Below are positions 30,752-32,426 of a DNA stretch of 64,000 bases, in pieces; within the stretch, counting starts at the first letter, position 1, and the number at the start of each line of letters is the position of its first letter. The notes below the pieces were generated by a model that was given only the letters and a program-made list of their open reading frames with translations, ran no database searches and was not told the origin of the DNA. The position numbers and the translations under genes are program-made. Source of the DNA: Thermoplasmata archaeon (lineage in GTDB: Archaea; Thermoplasmatota; Thermoplasmata; Lutacidiplasmatales; UBA184). The stretch lies in the NCBI GenBank assembly GCA_022750435.1, contig JAKIVS010000007.1, forward strand, positions 1 through 64,000, written 5' to 3'.

Positions 30752-31567
30752 ATGACCCGTCTTTCTCCCCGCCATCCGCGCTACCGGAGCCTGCGAACGA
30801 GGGCCCACCTCGGTGCGCTCGCCCGCACGGGCGTGGTCGCGCCGGAAGGTCTCATCGCCCACGGCCGCGGCGAAGCGTTCGACTACTTCCTCGGCGAGCG
30901 CACGACCGCATCGGCGCGGCGCGCCATCCGGGCGGCCGCCGTGTGGCTCGCGAACGCCGACCACCCGGTCGTCTCGGTCAACGGGAACGTGGCCGCGCTG
31001 GCCGCGCCGGCGGTGGCCCGCCTCCAGCGCGCCCGCCCCGGTCTCTCGGTCGAGGTCAACCTGTTCCACCGCACCCCCGGCCGCGCCCGCCGGATTGCGA
31101 CCCTCCTACGGTCGGCCGGCGTCCTCGACGTCCTCGGGGTAGTGCCGAACTCGCGTATCCCGGGATTGCCCAGCGACCGGGCGAGGGTCGACCGGCGCGG
31201 AATCCTCGTGGCCGACGTCTGCCTCGTTCCGTTGGAGGACGGGGACCGGACCGAAGCGCTCCGGGCGATGGGGAAGCACGTGATCTCCATCGACCTCAAC
31301 CCGCTCTCCCGGACCTCCGAGACCGCCGACCTCCCGATCGTCGACGAGCTGACGCGGGCCCTCGAAGGGCTCGCGGCCGAGCTGGGGAGGTCACGGCGGA
31401 GGACGGTGGGGGAGTTCCCGCCGTTCGACGCGCGGGGCGCGCTCAGGGCGGCGCGGAGGACGATGGCGCGGCGTCTGACCTCGGTCGGAGCACGTCCCCC
31501 AACGGCACCGCGATCCGCTCGGCGACCTTCTGCAGGAACCCCGCGTCGCTCGCGTCGAACACCTTGA
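30752..31567 (+). CDS. 4-phosphopantoate--beta-alanine ligase (archaeal phosphopantothenate synthetase)
   Basis: HPRYRSLRTRAHLGALARTGVVAPEGLIAHGRGEAFDYFLGERTT...NGNVAALAA...VEVNLFHRTPGR...KHVISIDLNPLSRTSETADLPIVDELTRA. Confidence 0.93.
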   Translation: MTRLSPRHPRYRSLRTRAHLGALARTGVVAPEGLIAHGRGEAFDYFLGERTTASARRAIRAAAVWLANADHPVVSVNGNVAALAAPAVARLQRARPGLSVEVNLFHRTPGRARRIATLLRSAGVLDVLGVVPNSRIPGLPSDRARVDRRGILVADVCLVPLEDGDRTEALRAMGKHVISIDLNPLSRTSETADLPIVDELTRALEGLAAELGRSRRRTVGEFPPFDARGALRAARRTMARRLTSVGARPPTAPRSARRPSAGTPRRSRRTP

Positions 31568-31958
31568 CCCGCGTGCCATCGATGTCGATCTCGCCGAGGA
31601 CCACGCCGTGGTCCATCACCGGGACGACGATCTCGGCGCGGGTCTCGAGGAAGCAGGCGAGGTAGTCCGGGTCCACCTGGACGTCGTCCACGACGACGGT
31701 GCGGCGCTCCCGGGCAGCCCGGCCGCACACTCCGCGTCCCAGGGGGATCTCGACATGCTCGGTCGGCTGGTCTCCCTCCCACGCCACGAGGGAGAGGGTC
31801 TCCCCGCGGAGGGCGTAGACCCCGATCCATCGGTAGTGGGAGAACTCGGCGCGGAGGAAACGGCAGACCTCCTGCAGCGCGTCCTTCCCTTGCAAGTGGG
31901 TGAGGATCGAGCCCACGTGCAGGAGCGCGGGCGTCGTCTGCCGGGGAGGAACCGTCAC
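31443..31958 (-). CDS. GAF-domain protein
   Basis: RAEFSHYRWIGVYALRGETLSLVAWEGDQPTEHVEIPLGRGVCGRAARERRTVVVDDVQVDPDYLACFLETRAEIVVPVMDHGVVLGEIDIDGTRVKVFDASDAGFLQKVAERIAVPL. Confidence 0.92.
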   Translation of the reverse strand: MTVPPRQTTPALLHVGSILTHLQGKDALQEVCRFLRAEFSHYRWIGVYALRGETLSLVAWEGDQPTEHVEIPLGRGVCGRAARERRTVVVDDVQVDPDYLACFLETRAEIVVPVMDHGVVLGEIDIDGTRVKVFDASDAGFLQKVAERIAVPLGDVLRPRSDAAPSSSAPP

Positions 31959-31980
31959 GCGCCCGTCCCGGAGGGGAGAG

Positions 31981-32098
31981 CGCCGAGGGGGAGAATTTCG
32001 GCCGCACCGGAGCGTCCGGCGGCGGCGTTTGAACTCCCGAGGCGTATTCCGCCACGAGCTTTCCAGACTCGCGCCGTACCGGACTGAGCCACCTCGGC
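31981..32098 (-). tRNA. tRNA-Ser(GGA), interrupted in the T-loop by about 33 nt (candidate intron)
   Basis: Minus strand GCCGAGG-TG-GCTCAGTCCGGTACGGCG-CGAGT-CTGGAAA-GCTCG-T-GGCG-GAATA-CGCC-TC-GGGAG-TTCAAA[insert]T-CTCCC-CCTCGGC-G: perfect 7-bp acceptor, 5-bp anticodon stem, 4-bp variable arm (class II) and 5-bp T-stem. Confidence 0.88.
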
Positions 32099-32159
32099 AC
32101 CTCCGGTCCGATGGGACCGGTCGAGGGCGATAACAGTATCGAAACTGGGGAAGCCGACG

Positions 32160-32426
32160 TCAGGGAAGCAGCAGGCTGCCGCACCGCGGGCAGCCGGAGG
32201 AGCGCTGCGGGAGCGGGACATCGAGCCCGCACTCCGGGCACGGGACGGGGTCGGGACCGAGCAGCGAGAGGCAATCGAAGCAGCTTCCCCCCCGCCGGTC
32301 GCTGGGGAGCACCACGAGCTCCTTCCCGCAGAAGGTGCAGTGCTGGAAGCGGTCGTCGGGACTCGAAAACGCGCGGTGGTCCGCGAACGAAAGCATGCGA
32401 GGCGCGCGAGCACGGTCCCCGTACAT
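32160..32426 (-). CDS. zinc-ribbon protein with four CxxC knuckles
   Basis: HCTFCGKELVVL..GSCFDCLSLLGPDPVPCPECGLDVPLPQRSSGCPRCGSLLLP. Confidence 0.8.
   Translation of the reverse strand: MYGDRARAPRMLSFADHRAFSSPDDRFQHCTFCGKELVVLPSDRRGGSCFDCLSLLGPDPVPCPECGLDVPLPQRSSGCPRCGSLLLP

Follow-up and report, generated by a model that had tools for sequence, protein, structure and literature searches.

A T-loop intron in the tRNA-Ser(GGA) gene of a Thermoplasmata archaeon and similar inserts across its family

Results

A tRNA-Ser(GGA) gene with 40 nucleotides in its T-loop

The 64,000-nucleotide stretch analysed here (the window) belongs to the 1.92 Mb genome (28 contigs, 84% complete) of an uncultured soil archaeon. 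Its minus strand reads as a class II tRNA-Ser gene in which all stems are paired: the acceptor stem is GCCGAGG/CCTCGGC, the variable arm GGCG-GAATA-CGCC and the T-stem GGGAG/CTCCC, and the anticodon loop is CTGGAAA (Table 1). These helices lie where the initial annotation had placed them, and its count of 40 nucleotides in the T-loop, 33 of them inserted, was likewise correct. Deletion of the 33 nucleotides leaves the predicted 7-nucleotide loop TTCAAAT, with the insertion site at position 59/60 (TTCAAA^...^T). ARAGORN found no tRNA in the window and called tRNA-Ser(gga) on the spliced sequence, while the Rfam tRNA model, whose cut-off is 29 bits, gave the unspliced gene 22.8; scanners therefore miss the gene, as had been foreseen. 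Removal of the insert restores a normal tRNA, as expected of an archaeal intron, judged by ARAGORN and by the same loop in the intron-less orthologues described below. The unspliced RNA folds better than shuffled sequences (z=–2.7).

Table 1. Features of the tRNA-Ser(GGA) locus, in window positions
Feature	Position	Strand	Length	Basis
tRNA-Ser(GGA) gene with intron	31981–32098	–	118 nt	Helices read; exact ends from model R1; ARAGORN
5′ exon, 3′ end ...GGGAGTTCAAA (position 59)	32028–32098	–	71 nt	Nearly invariant in about 30 orthologues
Intron, CGCCGCCGCCGGACGCTCCGGTGCGGCCGAAAT	31995–32027	–	33 nt	Missing from g17 and other-family orthologues; covarying hairpin
3′ exon, TCTCCCCCTCGGCG, starting at position 60	31981–31994	–	14 nt	Sequence reading; orthologues
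Anticodon GGA	32062–32064	–		Sequence reading; ARAGORN on spliced sequence
T54-T55-C56, putative exon strand of the BHB central helix	32031–32033	–		Pairs with 31997–31999 in 20 of 20 distinct Ser orthologues
GAA, intron –5 to –3, putative intron strand of the BHB central helix	31997–31999	–		12 of 13 T-loop introns of the genome, 1.3 expected
3′ bulge AT^T, putative 3′ cut before T60	31994–31996	–		Register from orthologues; cut site inferred
Promoter-like box GATACTGTTATC, conserved, about –42 to –31	32129–32140	–		A+T peak at –34 to –32 in 30 orthologues

In relatives the promoter-like box reads CTAAGCTTATC and lies at about –41 to –31; its conservation speaks for expression of the gene. 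The tRNA is flanked by genes for a zinc-ribbon protein (32160–32426, minus strand) and a GAF-domain protein (31443–31958, minus strand), a three-gene neighbourhood that is stable in most family members. Two open reading frames cross the tRNA (31955–32413, minus strand, 152 aa; 31608–32087, plus strand, 159 aa). At such G+C content both are probably spurious, and they carry a risk of mis-annotation.

Exons are nearly invariant and the insert keeps its form

A pattern search located tRNA-Ser(GGA) in 20 other genomes of the same genus, and a syntenic copy lies on the public contig JAKIVT010000027 (L050), where the adjoining glycosyltransferase is 78% identical. In all of these copies the insert is 32–33 nucleotides long and sits at exactly TTCAAA|T, and most same-genus copies are flanked by the GAF and zinc-ribbon genes, as in the window. 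The insert is also present in the family genera g18, g19, g21 and g22, and some 30 orthologues share site and hairpin. This conservation rules out chance and assembly error, since the genomes are independent. Three genomes of genus g17, in the same family, have an uninterrupted TTCAAAT, and the two of them that were examined for it retain the GAF neighbour. Five genomes from other families of the class are likewise uninterrupted, and these intron-less genes fix the insertion point. A tree of the GAF neighbour was too weak, without an outgroup, to give a direction of gain or loss in g17. The neighbouring genes have matches in Thermoplasmata MAGs, Candidatus Lutacidiplasma silvani among them, which makes Lutacidiplasmatales the probable order of the window.

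Within the genus, mean pairwise identity was 98.4% in the exons (a slightly low value, the 3′ exon of L103 having been misread in the computation), 70.5% in the insert, 53.5% in the 33 nucleotides upstream and 41.9% downstream. By this comparison the tRNA body is under purifying selection, and the insert varies yet keeps its form. One g18 genome (G274, locus L202) has the anticodon stem CAGGC/GCCTG instead of CGAGT/GCTCG and keeps the anticodon GGA, a compensatory exon change that likewise points to a functional tRNA.

The gene might instead be a disrupted pseudo-tRNA, killed by a random insertion while an intact tRNA-Ser(GGA) works elsewhere, and the initial annotation had named such a second copy, combined with the lack of any possible BHB fold and of splicing evidence, as what would overturn the intron reading. 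The failure of standard scanners speaks for a pseudo-tRNA, as does the incompleteness of the MAG, which leaves some room for a second copy. The pattern search, however, gave one match per genome and no second tRNA-Ser(GGA), either in the window's own genome or in relatives that are 93–100% complete. The exons show no relaxation, the changes in the insert are compensatory, and the same kind of inactivation would have to have struck one in three tRNAs of the set. We consider this explanation highly improbable.

Similar inserts in about one in three of the tRNA genes found

Model searches of the genome returned several tRNA genes truncated at the T-loop, and these were read individually. An intron at 59/60 was found in 13 of about 40 tRNA genes, a hand count from these searches that may miss genes and leaves out an ARAGORN Leu-gag call in L009 that looked spurious. 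The 13 are Ser-GGA, Ser-GCT, Arg-TCT, Arg-TCG, Gly-TCC, Asn-GTT, Ala-GGC, Glu-CTC, Gln-CTG, Leu-TAG, Asp-GTC, Lys-TTT and His-GTG. A covariance model (R1) trained on eight non-Ser members found the window gene at exactly its ends in Table 1 (E=1.7e-5) and revealed two further genes, Lys-TTT and His-GTG. ARAGORN recognised 12 of 12 T-loop-intron tRNAs when spliced (for Lys, with the D-loop insert removed too) and 3 of 12 when unspliced. A T-loop intron had been expected to be unusual here; the literature does place them mostly in Thermoproteota, but the present one is no isolated case.

Inserts in the D-loop were seen in iMet (L031), Lys-TTT (L063) and, less certainly, Leu-TAG (L032), the last two of which carry D-loop and T-loop inserts within the same gene. 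Removal of the iMet insert gives the standard sequence, and its central helix is CAGG:CCTG. Four genes have anticodon-loop introns: one CAT (Met/Ile), Tyr, Leu-TAA and Trp.

Pairwise comparison of the T-loop introns gave a mean score of 4.1, against 2.3 for shuffles. As the introns are only slightly more alike than shuffles, the idea that a single intron was recently copied from tRNA to tRNA was rejected. The most similar pair, Gly-TCC (L025) and Arg-TCG (L034), scored 13.5 (99% null, 9), a hint in the sequences of copying between these two tRNAs.

Proposed pairing of exon TTC with the 3′ end of the intron

The proposed structure, composed of T-stem, TTC:GRR helix and intron hairpin, was paired in 94.4% of cells across 20 distinct Ser sequences, and six of its pairs had changed on both sides. 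None of 500 shuffles attained this, and sliding the pairing partners lowered the paired fraction to at most 67%. The initial annotation had expected a bulge-helix-bulge (BHB) substrate built from the insert's own hairpin. The hairpin exists and covaries, but the central helix appears to be formed by exon TTC with GAA near the 3′ end of the intron. The same pairing recurs across the isotypes of this genome: in 12 of 13, each of T54, T55 and C56 finds its partner at intron positions –3, –4 and –5 (1.3 expected; 0 of 20,000 shuffles), the exception being Gly-TCC, which pairs T55-C56-G57 and leaves T54 unpaired. All three bases are likewise paired in 53 of 53 T-loop introns from 52 other loci, many of them orthologous and thus not independent.

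Exon base 57 and intron position –6 are also related. G57 faces C in 19 of 19 cases, including every G57 isotype seen, and A57 faces G (27), T (6) or C (1). In G57 tRNAs the result is a canonical BHB with a 4-bp central helix and 3-nucleotide bulges AA^N and NN^T, whereas the inner pair is mismatched in most A57 tRNAs. The window gene is among the latter; it has three of the four central-helix pairs, the fourth being an A57-C mismatch. The register at its junctions fits the anticipated fold with these three pairs, and RNAfold alone leaves the 3-bp helix open.

Two other fates of the insert can be weighed against these pairings. It could persist in the mature molecule and enlarge the T-loop, a reading that its structure and steady length of 32–33 nucleotides would suit. 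The contact between T-loop and D-loop at the tRNA elbow depends on a 7-nucleotide T-loop, however; the intron-less orthologues have exactly the loop that remains once the insert is taken out, and the bases pair as in a splice substrate. Retention is, if anything, still harder to credit than a pseudo-tRNA. Alternatively, the insert could be spliced by way of a relaxed motif, either a bulge-helix-loop (BHL) or loop cuts guided by the mature body, and not through the TTC:GAA helix. The central helix has just 3 bp and is often left open by RNAfold, and the α′2 EndA of A. fulgidus removes a BHL intron at 37/38 from full-length pre-tRNA (PMC6379350). Against this stand the TTC:GRR pairing in 20 of 20 distinct Ser introns and nearly all others, and the dependence of intron position –6 on exon base 57. 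A relaxed motif is therefore unlikely, though it deserves more weight than the two preceding alternatives.

The genome encodes an α′2-type EndA and RtcB

Endonuclease and ligase for splicing are both encoded in the genome, as EndA and RtcB. EndA is a single gene (L053:1471–2532, minus strand) for a 353-aa protein with two repeats, of which the C-terminal one has intact Tyr, His and Lys catalytic motifs. Structure prediction (pLDDT 93.7) gives it a fold that matches 5x89, a subunit fusion of Methanopyrus kandleri, and 2gjw of A. fulgidus. By Pfam, alignment and fold prediction, the enzyme is of α′2-type layout, one chain with two repeats and a catalytic C-terminal unit. Broad-specificity enzymes have an extra loop with a conserved Lys (CSL or ASL) ahead of the L-x-L-S-L-x-E-A helix in their catalytic repeat; sequence alignments including 1rlv and 4fz2 revealed no insertion at that place.

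The N-terminal repeat contains a class-conserved segment, FxVxPRGGxxxKTPSKYWV (residues about 104–128), that is missing in A. fulgidus EndA; its counterpart by alignment in ARMAN-2 EndA lies in the C-terminal unit (DFELYHRRGG...GKNSPRF). The segment's motif, PRGG-x3-K-[TS]-P-[SA]-[KR]-[FYW]-W, was considered as a dedicated new Lys loop and rejected: it is class-wide, occurring also in relatives with an uninterrupted tRNA-Ser(GGA), and it sits in the degenerate active-site region, not at the CSL/ASL position.

T-loop inserts throughout the family

We surveyed 395 genomes of the phylum, all at least 85% complete except the window's own, at a threshold of E≤1e-12. Each of the 47 genomes sampled from the window's family gave 2–8 matches at this threshold; among the genomes listed, the first to lack a match are found at the next rank. 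One or two matches were seen in 11 genomes outside the family. Matches were classed by model and length, and 52 loci were read base by base. The outside-family cases that were read (L148–L150, L152–L155) are 59/60 inserts, low-GC introns ending in ...GAAAA^T or ...CGAAAC^T. They occur sporadically in other families of Thermoplasmatota and are probably independent gains, and the site has therefore probably been used more than once.

Discussion

The 33-nucleotide insert is very probably a functional archaeal tRNA intron at 59/60 of the sole tRNA-Ser(GGA) found, excised by EndA at a BHB and followed by joining by RtcB. The initial proposal of a non-canonical T-loop intron thus holds up, on the intron-less orthologues, near-invariant exons, covariation of the insert and BHB register, together with the encoded EndA and RtcB and the single gene copy. 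Cleavage, the exact cut sites and ligation we infer from sequence. In the precursor, the T-stem would stack on the short helix between exon T54-T55-C56 and the intron's 3′ GAA. An A-rich bulge on the 5′ side of this central helix and an NN^T bulge on its 3′ side would complete the BHB, and the intron hairpin would follow further out. After cleavage of the two bulges by the α′2-type EndA, ligation of A59 to T60 by RtcB would give TTCAAAT.

α′2 endonucleases are reported to be narrow in specificity (PMC6379350, PMC12397907). According to reviews, α4 and α′2 enzymes cut the canonical BHB only, and Euryarchaeota that have them contain few tRNA introns, essentially at 37/38 (PMC4090602, PMC4033280), or only at that canonical position (PMC4090602). 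The present family, which combines an α′2-type enzyme with T-loop introns in roughly one in three of the tRNA genes found, contrasts with these statements. EndA may be strict about BHB shape and not about position, which would reconcile a narrow enzyme with T-loop introns. Because the TTCR in the T-loop of nearly every tRNA amounts to half a BHB, an intron ending in approximately YGAA-NN could be removed without a broad-specificity enzyme.

More speculatively, 59/60 could be a recurrent landing site at which a process in this family repeatedly inserts introns, a narrow α′2 EndA sufficing for their removal; we regard this as possible but doubtful. The route would perhaps be reverse splicing into the T-loops of mature tRNAs, then recombination into the gene, and any hairpin ending in about YGAA-NN would create a near-canonical BHB in the T-loop, which contains TTCR in almost all tRNAs. 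If so, tRNA introns could spread across isotypes, against the view that this needs a broad-specificity endonuclease. In this family one could test directly whether the spread of tRNA introns is limited by enzyme type or by BHB fit, and the presence or absence of one intron can be tracked at a conserved locus. In practical terms, tRNA counts for such archaea are too low wherever a scanner misses genes with T-loop introns.

Comparison with known systems

The kind of intron is already known: T-loop introns, including those at 59/60, have been described in Thermoproteota (PMC4090602; counts in PMC8450103). The window gene holds a real intron of this kind, and what appears to be new is the expansion across a Thermoplasmatota family. 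We found no description of a family-wide T-loop intron expansion in Thermoplasmatota in the open-licence literature searched, and the main text of a paper on Lutacidiplasmatales (PMC9287336) does not mention introns. The non-canonical BHB introns of Thermoproteota resemble those reported here in being short, in lying at 59/60 and 20/21 with BHB-type junctions, in affecting several isotypes and in occurring two to a tRNA. Thermoproteota, however, have (αβ)2 broad-specificity endonucleases, whereas the present lineage has an α′2-type enzyme and a dominant T-loop site. ARMAN-2 (Micrarchaeota), with its ε2 endonuclease (PMC12397907), also lies outside Thermoproteota and has introns at several tRNA positions; its enzyme has three repeats, whereas the one here has two and, by alignment, shows no ASL-like insertion at the equivalent site.

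Euryarchaeota with canonical 37/38 introns and α4 or α′2 EndA share the enzyme type and the canonical BHB seen here in G57 tRNAs, and anticodon-loop introns occur in this genome too (Tyr, Trp, Leu-TAA, Met/Ile CAT). They differ in having introns in under 10% of tRNA genes (PMC4090602); here the T-loop is the site and introns are far commoner. The permuted tRNAs of Thermofilum pendens and Cyanidioschyzon merolae (PMC3218864, PMC3978253) have the same 59/60 T-loop junction, and those of C. merolae undergo BHB-type processing of the sort proposed here. In permuted genes the halves are reordered, whereas here they stand in normal order with an intron between them.
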